DNA from: an uncultured Caryophanales bacterium
GTDB taxonomy: Bacteria; Bacillota_I; Bacilli_A; RFN20; CAG-826
Length of the DNA: 64,000 bases
Direction: 5' to 3'
Assembly (NCBI GenBank): GCA_947302535.1
Contig: CAMYVX010000001.1
Span: 1 to 64,000 of the forward strand
Shown piece by piece: positions 55,585-64,000 of the stretch. A model generated the notes under the pieces. It searched no databases. It saw only the letters and a list, made by a program, of their open reading frames with translations, and was not told the DNA's origin. Position numbers and translations under genes: made by a program. Positions within the stretch are counted from its first letter, which is position 1. Every line of letters begins with the position of its first letter.

Positions 55585-56622
55585 ATGAAAAAGATGCTTT
55601 TTATCTCTTGCTTAAATACTTCAAAAGAAAAGTTTGATGGCGAACGCATCAAATGCACTTTGATATATGAATCATTAAGGAAGTTTGCTGATTTATCTTT
55701 GATAAACTTAAGTGGACATAAGATTATCAATACATTATCAATCTTTTTCAAAGCGCTTTTTGGTAGAAGAAAGTATAAATACATAGTGATATCAAAGGAT
55801 GCTCACGGCGCTAATATTATTCAAAAAGTATTAAGGCTAGCCAGATACCCATCTAATAGGGTTGTCTATTTTGAAATCGGACCATTTTTATATGACAGAA
55901 TTCTAAATGGATCAATCAAAAAAGAAACATTTATTAAGGATAAACTCATAGTGGTGGAAACCTCATCTATGAAAGAAGAACTTCAATCATTAGGCTTTGA
56001 AAGAATAAGTGTTTTTCCAAATTTTAAACCAATTTGTAGGATTGATTTTAATGAACAGCATTATCCAAAGGATGTACTTAAACTTGTTTATCTATCTAGG
56101 ATAGAAGAGCCTAAAGGAATCTATGATTTAATTGATTGTTTAGTGGAACTAAATCAAGAAAAAACTAGATTTGTTTTGGATGTATTTGGTAGGCCACAAA
56201 ATAAGGATGAAGAGGCAAAAATCAAAGAGCTTTCAGATAAATACGATTTCATTAATTTCCAAGGAATGATGGAAGTTGGTAGTAAGGAGAGTTATGAGAA
56301 CCTTTCTAAATATGACTTACATGTATTTCCTACAAAATATAGAGAAGGTTTCCCTGGTTCGATAATTGACTTTTTTATTGCGGGTGTACCAACTTTGTCA
56401 GCCTCATTTGCAAGAGCGCACGAAGTATTAAGCGAAAACGACTCAATTATTTATGAGCAAGGCAATAATAATGATTTAATGAATAATTTAGAGTTTATTT
56501 ACAACAATCAAACCAAATTGGTTGATTTAAGAAAGAACTCTTTTGAAAGAAGAGAACAATATTCTGTTGAAAGCTTTGAGAAGTATTTAAAAGAGTTGAT
56601 TGAGAGAGATTTTAATGAATAA
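55585..56622 (+). CDS. Glycosyltransferase (GT4-like)
   Basis: LVYLSRIEEPKGIYDLIDCL, FPTKYREGFPGSIIDFFIAGVPTLSASFA. Confidence 0.88.
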   Translation: MKKMLFISCLNTSKEKFDGERIKCTLIYESLRKFADLSLINLSGHKIINTLSIFFKALFGRRKYKYIVISKDAHGANIIQKVLRLARYPSNRVVYFEIGPFLYDRILNGSIKKETFIKDKLIVVETSSMKEELQSLGFERISVFPNFKPICRIDFNEQHYPKDVLKLVYLSRIEEPKGIYDLIDCLVELNQEKTRFVLDVFGRPQNKDEEAKIKELSDKYDFINFQGMMEVGSKESYENLSKYDLHVFPTKYREGFPGSIIDFFIAGVPTLSASFARAHEVLSENDSIIYEQGNNNDLMNNLEFIYNNQTKLVDLRKNSFERREQYSVESFEKYLKELIERDFNE

Positions 56623-57364
56623 CAAAGTTAGTATTATCACTCCTGCATATAATTGTATAAACACTATTAAGGGAACATATGATAGTGTTCTTTCTCAAAC
56701 ATACAAAGATTGGGAATGGATAATAGTGGACGATTGTTCCAAAGATGATTCTTTTTCTTTTATTGAAGAATTAGCTAAAAATGAACCAAGAATAATTGTT
56801 TTACAGACACCAAAGAATGGTGGCTCTGGTGTAGCGAGAAACTTAGCATTAAAACACGCGAAAGGCAGATATATCACTTTCCTAGATTCTGATGATCTTC
56901 TTGATCCTAATTATTTAGAATGTCAATTAGAATTTATTAAAGATAATGGACCGCTTATTTCAGCGGGATATAGAAGACAAGCAGAACATACATGTACTGA
57001 TTTCTATGCACCTGAAGAAACAGATTATAAAAAAGCATTAACAGGTAATCCCTTATCTTGCTTAACCACTATGTATGATAGAAGTGTTATAGGTGATTTA
57101 TATTTTGATGAAACATATAACCGACATGAAGACTATATCTTCTGGTTAACAATATTAAAAAGAGGAATAGTGGCTAAAGGTAATCACAAGATATTAGCTA
57201 CTTATATTATTCACTCTAATAGTAAGAACTCTAATAAATCTAAATTAGTTAAATCTATGTATCGTGTATATCATGAGTCACAAGGATTCAATTGGTTAAA
57301 GAGTTGGATACTAGTTTTCAGATACGCTTTATATAGTAGAAAAAAATATAGAAATGTTAAATAA
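56615..57364 (+). CDS. Glycosyltransferase family 2
   Basis: VSIITPAYNCINTIKGTYDSVLSQTYKDWEWIIVDDCSKDDS, FLDSDDLLDPNYL. Confidence 0.93.
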   Translation: MNNKVSIITPAYNCINTIKGTYDSVLSQTYKDWEWIIVDDCSKDDSFSFIEELAKNEPRIIVLQTPKNGGSGVARNLALKHAKGRYITFLDSDDLLDPNYLECQLEFIKDNGPLISAGYRRQAEHTCTDFYAPEETDYKKALTGNPLSCLTTMYDRSVIGDLYFDETYNRHEDYIFWLTILKRGIVAKGNHKILATYIIHSNSKNSNKSKLVKSMYRVYHESQGFNWLKSWILVFRYALYSRKKYRNVK

Positions 57365-57426
57365 ATTTTGTGTTTGTTTTATTAAGATATATGTGAAAGA
57401 TATAGCGACTAAGGAAGGCACTTATT

Positions 57427-58701
57427 ATGAATAGAGAACAATATGATAAACTGCTTGTACTGTCAGCATCTGAACTTAGAGATTTCTTTATTCTCTATAT
57501 TGGTCTTGACTGTTTTTTAAAAGATAAACATATTATAAAAATGAGCAAACCTTCATTTCTAAAAGAGATGAATTACAATACTAAACAAGACAGGATTCTT
57601 TGGGAACCATATAGTTTTAGGCTCAAAATATTTGATATTAATAGTACTTATTATTTGTTGTTTAGAAATAAGGATAAAAAAATCAGTGAGTTTATTGAAC
57701 CCGGAAATATAAAGTTTAAAGAGCTGTCGAACTACGAAGATTCGCTTCCTAACGAAGTGATTGACTTATTAATTGACGCCTGTCATAACAATGTTAAAGG
57801 CGAAGAAGGTTATAAGAATATTCAAGCATTATTCAATTTAAAAAAGACCAACGATTTTGGCTATCGATTTATTGTTGGATCGGGTATTAATTATGGCTAT
57901 AATATGCCACAATGGTCTGAATTAGAAAACCAATTCAAAACCGTTGTTGATGGTATTTTTAAGAAGAATATATGTGATGCAATAAACAAAAGTGTGTTTA
58001 ACACTAATTACGGTTCGTTTCAGATTGTTAAGGACATTTCCTATAGCAATTATAAAAGCATTTTAGAATCAATGATTAATTTATCCAAGGATCCAACTCC
58101 TTATGACAATACAACATTAACCGCTATTGCAGCTGTGCTATATGCTCAAAGCTTAAATCATCCAAATGAAACTCAGCGTGTTTTAACATTCAATTACGAC
58201 GACTTATTAGAAAGATCATTGTTAAATTGCTATAACGAAGAAGCTTTAACAATTTACAAATATTCAATTGCAAAAGCGGCCCAACCAGGTTTTTCTTATT
58301 CTGTAATCCATTCTCATGGTTTTATTCCAAAATATCCAGAACCAGTTCTTGGGCAGAACTATGATTCAATTGTTTTAACAACAAATGAGTATTTTGAAAA
58401 TTATAAAAATCCATCTTCTTATGGTTATAGTCAATTATATGAACACCTCAATAAAATTTGTTGCTTTATTGGTAATGGATTAACTGATTACGAAGAACAA
58501 AAAGTCGTAAGCAAACATTTTAATGATTATCCATCAAGTTTTCATTTTTACTATAATTCAATTGAAGGGTTGCCAATTGAAGCGATAATGTACAAAACAA
58601 TATTTTTGTTAAAGATTGGCGTCATTCCTTTGTGGTATTCTTCACATGACGAGTATAAAAACGAATTTTATTCGTTTGCAAAAGTATTGGGAGTTGATTA
58701 A
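57427..58701 (+). CDS. SIR2-like domain protein (putative NAD-dependent defence effector)
   Basis: FIVGSGINYGYNMPQWSELENQF, VLTFNYDDLLERSLL, VIHSHGFIPK, CFIGNGLTDYEEQKVV. Confidence 0.85.
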   Translation: MNREQYDKLLVLSASELRDFFILYIGLDCFLKDKHIIKMSKPSFLKEMNYNTKQDRILWEPYSFRLKIFDINSTYYLLFRNKDKKISEFIEPGNIKFKELSNYEDSLPNEVIDLLIDACHNNVKGEEGYKNIQALFNLKKTNDFGYRFIVGSGINYGYNMPQWSELENQFKTVVDGIFKKNICDAINKSVFNTNYGSFQIVKDISYSNYKSILESMINLSKDPTPYDNTTLTAIAAVLYAQSLNHPNETQRVLTFNYDDLLERSLLNCYNEEALTIYKYSIAKAAQPGFSYSVIHSHGFIPKYPEPVLGQNYDSIVLTTNEYFENYKNPSSYGYSQLYEHLNKICCFIGNGLTDYEEQKVVSKHFNDYPSSFHFYYNSIEGLPIEAIMYKTIFLLKIGVIPLWYSSHDEYKNEFYSFAKVLGVD

Positions 58702-58911
58702 ATCAAAAAATATCAATATTTTGCTTACATCTGTTTATTTTTATATAGTCAATAGTTTGTGATATTTGTGGTGAATCTTTAAAATCGCCTAATATTGTAG
58801 ATAATTATGGTAGAAATTGTTTAATACCAAATGATGTGAGACAAAATTAAATAATAAAAAAGACATCTTATCTATAATTAAGTTGTTCAAGCTTTATAGA
58901 AGGAGATGTCC

Positions 58912-59205
58912 ATGAGTATTTTAGCATTAGAAAGAAACTATATACCAATAGACATTGAAACAAGACTACATGCCTGCCTCCGTAGGACTGTTTCAGAATG
59001 GCTAATAAGAAAGATTACATCTTTCTATCACATCAAAAGAAGTTCTTTTTATCGATGGTTAAAAAGATTTGATGGAACTAAACAAATCATTAGTGGATCA
59101 TTCACATAAACCATTAAATGATCATCCAAATAAGCTTAAAGCAAATATTGTTAAGAAACGTTTTTATTATCCTATCATTATTTATAGGAAAAGCGGCTGT
59201 TATTA
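58912..59205 (+). pseudogene. Truncated, frameshifted transposase fragment
   Basis: HTH part RKITSFYHIKRSSFYRWLKRFDGTKQ then, in another frame, SLVDHSHKPLNDHPNKLKANIVKKRF. Confidence 0.7.
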
Positions 59206-59381
59206 AAAAACAGTATCTTTATTGATAGAAATATTGTTAAAAATTACTGAATCTTTCTAACTTGTTTTATTCTGAAGCAAAATGACAGTTATAAACATGT
59301 ATACGTTCAAACAATTAAGTTTCAATGATCATAACAATTTTATATAATAAAGGCTAATAACTCTAGGAGCATAGAACATTA

Positions 59382-60578
59382 ATGTCTACAAACAATTTCT
59401 TTGCAAAGAAAAAGGACTGGTCTAAAACAAAAGATAGTATTTTAGGGTCGTATTTAACTCCTTATTTTTATAAGTTATTGGCTTACCACAGGCCAATTTG
59501 TTATATTGACTGTTTTGCAGGTAAAGGAAAATTTGATGACGGAGAAAACGGATCGCCATTAATAGCCTTAGAATGTATTAAAAAAGATTTGACTGTTTCA
59601 AAATATGTTAAGAAACAGATTAAAGCATACTTTATTGAGTTAAATCATTTTAAAGACCTAGAAAATAATCTTATCGTTGATAATATTGATGATTTAAGCA
59701 TCGAGGTAGTGGGAGGAAGATTTGAAGATAATATTGACCTTATTTTAAATAATCATCCTTTTGATACTGTTTTTCTTTATGTCGATCCATATGGAATAAA
59801 AGCTCTTGATGTTAAAAAGTTTTGTTCATTTAAGACTAACGAAACAAAAAGTGTAGAAATGCTTATAAATTTTAATACCTGGGGCTTCTTTAGAGAGGCG
59901 TGCAGAGTTCTCAAGGTAGATTTTAAACTTGATGACGCAATAAATGAGTATCTTGTCGAGTATGAACCAGCTAATGACATTAATAGAGATGAATTGACAA
60001 GGATAGCTGGTGGCGATTTTTGGATAAAAATAGTACAGGATTTTAAAAATCAATTGATTTCTTCAAAAGAAGCTGAGAAATTATTGGCTGACGGAATTTC
60101 AGACGCTTTCAAATCAAAATATAAATACGTTTTAAATGTGCCAGTTAGATCAAATCAAGATAACATAATTCCTAAGTATAGGTTGTTTCATTTAACGAAT
60201 CATGATGAGGGGTGCCTTATCATGGCCGACATAATGTATAAGCGAATAAACGAGTCGATTGAGAGGCAGCAAGGTGGGCAGATGTCCATTTTTGAATTCA
60301 ATACTGAAGGAAATTTAGAGAGTCAAGAAAATACCAAACAAATGATTAAAGACATTTTTCCTAGTTCGTCTATTTGTCTTACCCCGTTCTTGTGTGAATT
60401 TTTCACCAAATTCGGTATTGAAACTGGGAGTTCGAAATTAATTGAATATATTAAAGAATTAGAATATGAAGGTTTCCTAAAGATTAGCCGCTTTCCTGAT
60501 AAAACAACAAAGGGGCAGGAAAGTACATTTATGAGAGAAGACAAAAAACATAAAGTAATTTTAAATAAGGCGGTGTAA
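59382..60578 (+). CDS. tcmP: Three-Cys-motif partner protein TcmP
   Basis: KDWSKTKDSILGSYLTPYFYKLLAYHRPICYIDCFAGKGKFDDGENGSPLIALE; TVFLYVDPYGIKALD. Confidence 0.93.
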   Translation: MSTNNFFAKKKDWSKTKDSILGSYLTPYFYKLLAYHRPICYIDCFAGKGKFDDGENGSPLIALECIKKDLTVSKYVKKQIKAYFIELNHFKDLENNLIVDNIDDLSIEVVGGRFEDNIDLILNNHPFDTVFLYVDPYGIKALDVKKFCSFKTNETKSVEMLINFNTWGFFREACRVLKVDFKLDDAINEYLVEYEPANDINRDELTRIAGGDFWIKIVQDFKNQLISSKEAEKLLADGISDAFKSKYKYVLNVPVRSNQDNIIPKYRLFHLTNHDEGCLIMADIMYKRINESIERQQGGQMSIFEFNTEGNLESQENTKQMIKDIFPSSSICLTPFLCEFFTKFGIETGSSKLIEYIKELEYEGFLKISRFPDKTTKGQESTFMREDKKHKVILNKAV

Positions 60579-60582
60579 CAAT

Positions 60583-61347
60583 ATGAAAACCATTACTCGA
60601 AAAACATTATTATATAAAACAGGGGTTGAATATGGTGATTTTACGATCAACCACGTTTTAGGGTGCTCTCACGGTTGCCTATTTCCTTGTTATGCATTTA
60701 ATATGGCTAAAAGATTCGGAAATGTAAAAACATATAAAGATTGGCTTGAACCAAAATTGGTTTCAAATGCTTTGGATTTATTAGATAAAGAAATTCCAAG
60801 GTATAAAAATAAGATTAAATCTGTTCAATTGTGTTTTACAACTGACCCATTTATGAATGGTTATTCCGAAGTTTCTGAAATGACCATTAAAATTATAAAT
60901 AAATTAAATAAAAACAAGATTAAGGCTGTAACATTAACAAAAGGAACAATTCCGGAATCAGCATTAAAAACTGAAAAATACAATGAATACGGAATAACTT
61001 TAGTCTCGTTAAGTGAAGATTTTAGAAGACAATATGAACCATTTACCTCCTCTTATGAAGAAAGGATTGCGTGTCTGAGAAGGATGCATGAGGCTGGGTT
61101 TAAAACGTGGGTTAGTATTGAACCTTATCCAACGCCTAATGTAATTGAACAAGATCTAGTCGCAATTTTAAATAGTGTTTCCTTTGTTGATTATATTGTT
61201 TTTGGAAGATGGAACTATAATAAAGTTATTTCAAGTTATAAGGATAGGGATATGTTTTTTAATATATCTGTTAAAACTGTTATTGATTTTTGTGAAGGGC
61301 ATAAAATTAAGTATCATATAAAAAATGGTACTGTTAGGTCAAAATAA
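60583..61347 (+). CDS. Three-Cys-motif (radical SAM/SPL-like) protein
   Basis: NHVLGCSHGCLFPCYAFNMAKRFG (CX3CX3C); immediately downstream of tcmP. Confidence 0.88.
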   Translation: MKTITRKTLLYKTGVEYGDFTINHVLGCSHGCLFPCYAFNMAKRFGNVKTYKDWLEPKLVSNALDLLDKEIPRYKNKIKSVQLCFTTDPFMNGYSEVSEMTIKIINKLNKNKIKAVTLTKGTIPESALKTEKYNEYGITLVSLSEDFRRQYEPFTSSYEERIACLRRMHEAGFKTWVSIEPYPTPNVIEQDLVAILNSVSFVDYIVFGRWNYNKVISSYKDRDMFFNISVKTVIDFCEGHKIKYHIKNGTVRSK

Positions 61348-61417
61348 TATTTGGTTATGTTTGTTGTTCTCAAATATACTTCAAGTACAGATTTTAAAAT
61401 AGCGGAAACGATATAAG

Positions 61418-62710
61418 ATGAGTAAAAGATGTTACGGAGATATAATTGAGCTTCATAAAAATTACGGAGTAATTAGCACGATGGTTGAAGACCGTAAAGT
61501 TAAATTATACTTTAATACTATATCTTCAATGTTTGATGCAAACCACAAACCGCTACTGAGACAAAAAGTCTCTTTTGAGACCAGGAATATGTTATGGCGT
61601 GGCATCAATATAGTATGTGCATATAACATCAAATCAGAAGACGGTCCCTTGGTGAAATTAGTTTGCTTGAATAATAAGGAAACAGATTTTTCAAGATATC
61701 TTTTTGCATCTCTTCGTTCCAACAGCTTGCCAGGGAAGAACACCTTAGATAAATTAATTGAAGCAGATAAACAAATATCATTATTTTATTTGAAATGGAT
61801 TTTATTTATCGAAAAAGAAGCAAAAGTAGCTTTATCGAGAGCAATTGAATTAGTTGGTAAATCATCTTCTTGGCTAATTTCGAAGTTAGATTCAACCCCT
61901 ATCACTAAGAAAATTTTAAAAAATGCACTAGTTGGAATTAAAGAGAAAACCTGGCTATCAATTTCGTCCGATTTTGTTGTGTTCTCTCAAAAGAATAATG
62001 ACCCTAATGATGTTGAAGTAATTGATGCTCCGGTTGAACTATTACTCTCAACCGTTACACTAGCGGAATTATCCGACATTATCAAAACCGTGTTTTTAGA
62101 GCTTTCTTTGCTTAAGCAAAAAGAAAATGATCTTTACATTTATTTATGGTATTTGGAAGGTATGCTTTCTGATTTATCAATAATTAGAAATGCGGCTGCA
62201 CACGGGAATGCATTGGCCCCGCTCATTGCTAATGACACGTTTGACCCTGCATATTTTTACGAAATGGCTGACGTTTTTCCTCAATGGAATTCTAATGACT
62301 CCTTAAATAATGCGGAAAATTATAAACCATTCACATTTATTCGTTTTTTGACTAAGGGAGAAGCTAAAAGTGGCGTTCACCTTTCTGGCAGGCGCAACCT
62401 TCCCCCTCAATTTGAAGCTTTATTTTTTACGAAATCTTTATTTATAAATCCATTTAAGAAGTCATTGTTTTCTATGTTTTTTCTTGTGCATGCGACATTT
62501 GCCTTTTTTAATAATGATGAAAGAGATAATTTTTACAACGACTTACATCAGTCCGGTTTATCATTTTTTAATGGGGATCGCGAGTCACCATTTACTGGAT
62601 ATCCGGACAAAATTAATTCCTTATCTTCTAAACTTTTAAGAATTGTCTGGCTAGTTTTGTCATATGGAGATAGTACCCGCTTTAAGTGCTTTGCCAGTGT
62701 GTGTAAATGA
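61418..62710 (+). CDS. Abi-family HEPN protein with N-terminal cold-shock/OB-like domain
   Basis: N-term YGDIIELHKNYGVISTMVEDRKVKLYFNTISSMFDANHKPLLRQKVSFETRNMLWRGINIVCAYNI; C-term SDLSIIRNAAAHGN (RX4H at 62186-62203). Confidence 0.75.
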   Translation: MSKRCYGDIIELHKNYGVISTMVEDRKVKLYFNTISSMFDANHKPLLRQKVSFETRNMLWRGINIVCAYNIKSEDGPLVKLVCLNNKETDFSRYLFASLRSNSLPGKNTLDKLIEADKQISLFYLKWILFIEKEAKVALSRAIELVGKSSSWLISKLDSTPITKKILKNALVGIKEKTWLSISSDFVVFSQKNNDPNDVEVIDAPVELLLSTVTLAELSDIIKTVFLELSLLKQKENDLYIYLWYLEGMLSDLSIIRNAAAHGNALAPLIANDTFDPAYFYEMADVFPQWNSNDSLNNAENYKPFTFIRFLTKGEAKSGVHLSGRRNLPPQFEALFFTKSLFINPFKKSLFSMFFLVHATFAFFNNDERDNFYNDLHQSGLSFFNGDRESPFTGYPDKINSLSSKLLRIVWLVLSYGDSTRFKCFASVCK

Positions 62711-62921
62711 TTTCCAAAGTTAATCAAAATTACCATTAACTGAAACAATTATTACATTAGGACTTGCTGTTTTGAGTGCGATGATTTCTTTTTTATTGTT
62801 TTCAAATCCCTTTCTTCAGAATTACAAAAAAAGACAAACAAAAAATCAATGATACATTGGAAAAACTATAAAGTTATAACAACTTAAATACAATCATATT
62901 TATTTAACAATGAGCGGAATC

Positions 62922-62940
62922 ACTGTATAAAAAATACAGT
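62922..62940. promoter_or_regulatory. Operator-like inverted repeat upstream of the AAA ATPase
   Basis: ACTGTA-TAAAAAA-TACAGT, 19 bp. Confidence 0.6.
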
Positions 62941-62978
62941 TTTTAATTTACTTTCAAAATTGAGACTGATATTATATT

Positions 62979-62997
62979 AGTGTAGAAAAACTACAGT
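62979..62997. promoter_or_regulatory. Second operator-like inverted repeat
   Basis: AGTGTAG-AAAAA-CTACAGT, 19 bp; overlaps the expected transcription start. Confidence 0.6.
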
Positions 62998-63008
62998 GAG
63001 GATGAAAC

Positions 63009-64000
63009 ATGTTAAAAAAGATTATTATTCGAAACGTTAATTCTATTGATGTTTGTGAAATCGATTTTACAAAAGGAAATTTTAAGTTCGGCGATGAAAA
63101 CATTCTTGAAGATGTAGTCAATCCGATTGCCATCTATGGTCATAATGGTAGTGGTAAATCATCTGTTTTGAATGCTATTGGATTTTTTATTTCCCTTATG
63201 TACTATCCCGCAGAGGCTTTAGCACCTTTTGTTGTTAATGATTTCTTGTTTCAAGAATATTTATCAGGAAATAGAACCGATAAAGAAAAGATAAAAGGCA
63301 GCATCTATTTAGAATTCGATATTAATAATGATAGTTTTTGTTATTTATTAGAAACGTCTAGGGACAACTATATAAGTAGAGAATTCTTAAAAAAGAATGA
63401 TTTAGTTTATTTTGAAAGAGAAAAAAGTTCCTATAGATATAAAGATGAAAATAGACAAATAAAGGACAATTCACTTCTCGCCCCTCTTTTACGTATTTTA
63501 GCTTCAGAAGAGATTATGGATATAACAATTCAATCTGTCTTTGCATATATTAGCTCATTCACGTTTATAAATTTGCCATTTATTAATAGAGGATCATTTG
63601 TTACATCAAAATTATTTAACAATACTAATATATATGATTTATTAGTTAAAAAGTCTGAGGAAGTTAAAAAGTTGTTGGAAGAATACGATAGTTTTCCTGT
63701 TTACAAGATAGTGAAGAATAATAGGATTTCTCCAAATGGGCTAATTGCATCTCAATATAATATTGTTTTCGATGATGACGGATTTAAAAAACAATTACCA
63801 ATAAATATGATTTCGGTCGGTATGCATAACCAAAGTGTTTTGCTTTCTATCATAGCTACGGTGCCTGAAAACAGTGTTATCTTTATTGATGAGGTTGATC
63901 TCGCGCTACACCCATCGACAATAAAATCATTCCTAAAAGTCATTAGAGATAAGCATATTCAAGTAGTTTTTACTTTGCATAATACTTTTGCATTGCAAAT
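63009..64000 (+). CDS. AAA-family ATPase (SMC/OLD-like ABC-type fold), truncated by window end
   Basis: Own translation (absent from the ORF track because no stop is in the window): MLKKIIIRNVNSIDVCEIDF...IAIYGHNGSGKSSVLNAIGFF...ENSVIFIDEVDLALHPS. Confidence 0.88.
   Translation, partial: MLKKIIIRNVNSIDVCEIDFTKGNFKFGDENILEDVVNPIAIYGHNGSGKSSVLNAIGFFISLMYYPAEALAPFVVNDFLFQEYLSGNRTDKEKIKGSIYLEFDINNDSFCYLLETSRDNYISREFLKKNDLVYFEREKSSYRYKDENRQIKDNSLLAPLLRILASEEIMDITIQSVFAYISSFTFINLPFINRGSFVTSKLFNNTNIYDLLVKKSEEVKKLLEEYDSFPVYKIVKNNRISPNGLIASQYNIVFDDDGFKKQLPINMISVGMHNQSVLLSIIATVPENSVIFIDEVDLALHPSTIKSFLKVIRDKHIQVVFTLHNTFALQ

Follow-up and report, generated by a model that had tools for sequence, protein, structure and literature searches.

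Cas13 is believed to descend from HEPN RNases of the AbiF type, of which those studied are kept in check by an antitoxin RNA: AbiF is neutralised by a non-coding RNA (ncRNA) with abiF motifs, and replacement of its residues R202 and H207 abolishes toxicity (PMC12373285). HEPN domains and cold-shock-like (CSD-like) OB folds meet in other described systems. HEPN-STAND NTPases carry both in one protein, as does the gene described here, but theirs is an N-terminal HEPN domain with a STAND NTPase and the OB fold at the C-terminus (PMC3710099). CoCoNuT systems, predicted to act in RNA-targeting defence, also use CSD-like OB folds and HEPN RNases; unlike the present gene, they are multi-gene systems of McrBC type with the cold-shock domains on CnuB/CnuC and the HEPN domain on CnuE (PMC11090510). 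Among retrons, the type IX retron-Kva2 has a HEPN RNase effector, and cold-shock proteins are also named as effectors (PMC13405049). The HEPN domain of Kva2 lacks RxxxxH, however, and a reverse transcriptase adjoins neither copy of the gene reported here.

Gene and domain architecture

The window (the whole stretch of DNA analysed, 64,000 nt) contains a single intact open frame for a protein of 430 aa, in which the following parts were distinguished:

61418..62710, + strand, whole ORF: 430 aa, OB/CSD-like domain, Abi_2 HEPN domain (predicted RNase) and C-terminal region
61418..61642, + strand, N-terminal OB-fold, cold-shock-like domain: residues 1-75, with RNP1-like KNYGVI at 14-19 and YFN at 31-33
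61643..61735, + strand, weakly conserved linker: residues 76-106, one predicted helix, 11% identity to the Enterococcus relative, low pLDDT
61736..62209, + strand, HEPN (Abi_2/AbiF-type) domain: residues 107-264, from the PF07751 match, hhalign, AlphaFold2 helices and the PbAbiF match
62186..62203, + strand, predicted catalytic motif R257-N-A-A-A-H262: conserved column in the Abi_2 alignment, RNACAH in the relative (locus L049)
62210..62707, + strand, C-terminal region: residues 265-430, 29% identity to the relative, without a Pfam family

This architecture of OB domain, Abi_2 HEPN domain and C-terminal region is well supported and, in our judgement, very likely correct. Compared with AbiF/AbiD proteins (PbAbiF, PDB 8vz6; AbiFCd of C. 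difficile), the protein shares a HEPN domain with RNxxAH, the conserved D, E..K and R..H residues and a defence-island setting, and PbAbiF is its top structural match. In contrast, it has 430 rather than about 300 residues, an OB domain for the first ~39 residues and a long conserved C-terminal region, and abiF ncRNA was undetectable in the searches given below. No description of an Abi_2 HEPN domain with an N-terminal OB domain was found in the literature searched, which lay mostly outside subscription journals, and the combination is apparently rare and undescribed.

HEPN domain

Abi_2 (PF07751) is the sole Pfam family in the ORF. It matches residues 112-266 at 29.0 bits, above the cut-off of 25.6 (E 1.6e-6), and spans profile positions 36-182 of 184. 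The earlier note had read RNAAAH as a HEPN motif in an Abi_2-like context, and this string (257-262) indeed lies inside the Pfam match, at its end and at the HEPN catalytic position. Since an R[NHD]xxxH string arises in 3% of shuffles of the 430-aa protein, the string by itself is weak proof and the evidence is the position of the motif. D117, E132, K/R136, R257, N258, A261 (mostly) and H262 align with almost every one of the 20 viral Abi_2 fragments compared, R257 and H262 with all of them, and a profile-profile comparison with Abi_2 proteins of relatives (hhalign) gave P 7e-9 over residues 98-273.

AlphaFold prediction from the 430-aa sequence alone reached a pLDDT of 36. The AlphaFold2 model used here was obtained with an alignment of the protein, the 20 viral Abi_2 fragments and the Enterococcus relative, and showed the HEPN helices at residues 107-145, 161-180, 215-229 and 238-261, with pLDDT of up to 92 in blocks of ten residues. 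A helical HEPN domain was modelled around RNAAAH, as the earlier note had anticipated. The top structural match among the chains compared was the PbAbiF dimer in complex with its ncRNA (8vz6), with residues 88-359 of the model placed on residues 40-300 of a PbAbiF chain (189 residues, rmsd 5.2) at Z 7.1, which is below the tool's safe level of 8 for helical folds. Alone this value is not decisive, but together with the sequence evidence the relationship of the HEPN domain to AbiF is firm. By analogy with AbiF, the domain would act as an RNase, and it would be expected to dimerise. Foldseek with the whole AlphaFold2 model gave no significant matches, probably because of its loosely modelled regions, and PDB sequence searches with the full 430-aa protein returned chance matches only.

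The AbiF N-terminal segment (profile positions 1-35) is missing from the protein. Since profile position 36 is the first one covered by the Abi_2 match, and residue 88 of the model aligns with residue 40 of PbAbiF, the OB domain occupies the place of the first ~39 residues of AbiF. Some short Abi_2 members likewise lack the segment of profile positions 1-35.

The C-terminal region was absent from the earlier description of this gene. Residues 265-430 are conserved in the Enterococcus relative, the model of this part is helical with low to middling pLDDT, and Pfam gave no matches for residues 291-430.

N-terminal OB domain

Residues 1-75, in which a CSD-like pattern had been noticed, are conserved in the relative and were modelled as the predicted OB-type domain of five strands (3-12, 17-23, 26-32, 50-60 and 63-70). 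The pLDDT was mostly 70-76 up to residue 50 and lower beyond, for a part that was modelled from two sequences only, without a cold-shock sequence or template. Its structural neighbours in the PDB are largely OB domains, and repeatedly the cold-shock domains of UNR/CSDE1. The single closest match is that of the OB domain of Dis3L2 to residues 1-72 (Z 5.8); several UNR cold-shock domains match residues 1-75 with Z 3.3-4.7 and 14-25% identity, and CspA, CspB, YB1 and S1 domains are found as further matches. The OB fold of residues 1-75 is well supported as a predicted structure.

Sequence searches by themselves are only suggestive of a cold-shock identity. Up to E 10, residues 1-84 matched neither CSD nor any other Pfam family. 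When all PDB sequences were searched with a profile built from the two proteins, four matches appeared at E up to 10, two of them CSDE1/UNR cold-shock domains (E 0.51 and 0.7), in whose alignment KNYGVI falls on the RNP1 motif. With hhalign, cold-shock proteins of relatives matched in a full-length, colinear manner at P 0.0078, a result equalled by 3 of 200 column shuffles.

Like the cold-shock domains compared (Pfam CSD; UNR/CSDE1, CspA/B, YB1), the domain shows a five-strand OB fold and an RNP1-like KN[YF]GV, which is KNYGV in the 430-aa protein and KNFGV in the Enterococcus relative. Unlike them, it is below Pfam detection and keeps the RNP aromatics only in part: the Lys, one aromatic and the Gly of RNP1 are kept, but both proteins have Val in place of the second aromatic. 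The alignment register of RNP2 moves by 1-2 residues between methods. "Cold-shock-like" is thus the best label for the domain rather than a proven membership. The OB part is net basic in both proteins, with 12 K/R against 8 D/E in the window gene and 13 against 4 in the relative. Because of the Val at the second RNP1 aromatic and the uncertain RNP2 register, it is only plausible that this domain binds single-stranded RNA or DNA.

Relatives and distribution

Protein searches of 395 genomes of the class, 224 of the family and 392 of the phylum, as well as of phages, plasmids and viral contigs, gave no relatives; the weak matches L032, L035 and L053 were inspected and found to be unrelated. A relative emerged when degenerate patterns built around the HEPN motif were run against 84,980 species genomes; these patterns had been set with probes whose residues outside the chosen motifs were scrambled. 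The single true relative is from Enterococcus sp. MSG2901 (locus L049, E 1e-24) and matches residues 7-136 and 193-411. Residues 1-75 are the best conserved part, with 34% identity; the HEPN part has 30% and residues 265-430 have 29%. Identity is thus about 30% across all three parts, which therefore belong together.

Close to a run of seven A, the reading frame of the Enterococcus copy (L049:5992-7256) breaks into two overlapping parts. A mutation, a sequencing error or programmed frameshifting may be the cause, and with its frame split this copy may be inactive.

A two-sequence profile was run on genomes of the Enterococcus order (178), the genus Enterococcus (15) and the order of the window genome (78), and no third member was found. 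The other profile matches there are an Abi_2 gene (G102) and a chance match (G783). In a survey of Abi_2 matches, none of the other frames listed resembled the 430-aa ORF in length and make-up; a 735-aa Abi_2 fusion has a different N-terminus, helical-looking by eye. The family of OB and Abi_2 proteins is rare in the collections searched, and the narrow pattern scan will have missed members.

Proposed mechanism and alternatives

The architecture suggests, rather than proves, that one protein combines a sensor with a killer nuclease. In the reading that we prefer, although it falls a little short of an even chance, the gene encodes an HEPN RNase of the AbiD/AbiF kind with an OB domain for its N-terminus, acting as a self-contained abortive infection protein with gating or targeting by nucleic acid. 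Two chains would pair via their HEPN domains, so that both RNAAAH motifs form one RNase site, which would be kept quiet in healthy cells. Upon phage infection, the OB domain would engage phage ssRNA or ssDNA or damaged host RNA, and this engagement would release or direct RNA cleavage, so that the infected cell stops growing or dies. The RNase step follows the AbiF precedent, while OB binding, gating and abortive infection are steps that we infer.

A bolder proposal, of which we are doubtful, is a single-gene immune RNase whose OB domain replaces both the N-terminal segment of AbiF and its control by RNA antitoxin, senses phage single-stranded nucleic acid directly and activates its own HEPN site; it would be a guide-free counterpart of Cas13 derived from the same AbiF ancestor. 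If true, an AbiF relative with an OB domain and no recognisable antitoxin RNA would represent a different control of the same nuclease, and the question of control could be approached with one gene.

OB, S1 and cold-shock domains often act as substrate arms. Accordingly, the OB domain might be a constant RNA-binding arm that supplies the HEPN site with tRNA or mRNA, with control by expression, by dimerisation or by a phage protein acting on the C-terminal region. That residues 1-72 match the Dis3L2 OB domain best is consistent with this, and the conserved C-terminal region offers another possible control surface. Against it, the OB part stands in place of the AbiF N-terminus and is not added behind it. 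We regard such an arm as possible but doubtful.

Control by RNA was also considered, that is, a classical AbiF-like toxin under an RNA antitoxin (type III-like toxin-antitoxin) with an OB domain that helps to hold the RNA. That the top structural match is an AbiF with bound ncRNA, and that AbiF is neutralised in this way (PMC12373285), agrees with it. However, the abiF RNA (RF03085) was not found in the window or L130 at the gathering score, nor in positions 56000-64000, L001 and L049 at E up to 5, so that even permissive thresholds near the gene gave nothing, although a divergent RNA could escape. Neither was a repeat array found adjoining the window gene, and the gaps flanking it fold no better than shuffles. 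RNA control of this kind is unlikely. That these searches revealed no partner or antitoxin RNA able to explain control also counts against the preferred reading.

Several of the cold-shock domains of UNR are non-canonical. As UNR domains are the best CSD matches, the N-terminal domain could be a degenerate OB fold for protein contacts (recognition of a phage protein or binding of a partner) instead of nucleic acid, and the Val at the second RNP1 aromatic in both proteins and the missing Pfam CSD match also point in this direction. The net basic charge and KN[YF]GV, kept in both proteins, argue against it, and a role in protein contacts is rated as quite unlikely.

Genomic context

The gene lies within a defence island that breaks up a polysaccharide gene cluster. 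The run of defence-type genes reported in the earlier note was recovered around it, with SIR2-like, TcmP/radical-SAM, AbiLi-like ATPase and RloB-like genes:

57427-58701, upstream: SIR2_2/AbiH-like protein (E 4.4e-8 and 5.6e-6), then 680 bp without a clear gene
59382-61347: TcmP (TIGR04474, E 1.8e-33) and a radical-SAM/DUF5131-like protein, like the PADLOC candidate pairs PDC-M30/M41
63009 onward and L130:510-2421, continuing beyond the window end: AbiLi-like AAA ATPase (E 1.7e-36) and RloB-like/PDC-M12B partner
L130:4824-17462: two serine-recombinase-like fragments, a dGTPase-like HD protein, an SF1 helicase, a large protein without Pfam matches and a Fic protein

In the last of these stretches, the Fic protein is followed by a UDP-sugar dehydrogenase-like gene that belongs to the polysaccharide cluster.

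The Enterococcus copy is flanked on one side by a PIN protein and on the other by a clear Gabija pair (GajA E 2e-185, GajB E 2e-227). The two copies have no neighbours in common, although both are in defence islands, and these differing neighbours favour a self-contained gene. That the gene belongs to a multi-gene system, either with the TcmP/radical-SAM pair or with the AbiLi-like ATPase and RloB-like genes downstream, is very improbable: the radical-SAM gene is on the same strand 70 nt upstream of the ORF, but neither pair adjoins the Enterococcus copy and the downstream gap is 300 nt. A role as retron effector was dropped, with no reverse transcriptase among the ORFs around the window gene or the Enterococcus copy.

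Two minor features were observed next to the genes. The PIN_8 protein directly upstream of the Enterococcus copy (L049:4331-5914) has a zinc-ribbon-like C-terminal stretch. In the window, a short frame without a good start at 62742-62853, in the gap between the 430-aa ORF and the AbiLi-like ATPase gene, encodes a hydrophobic, membrane-like stretch (ETIITLGLAVLSAMISFLLF...), and is either a remnant or a small peptide gene.
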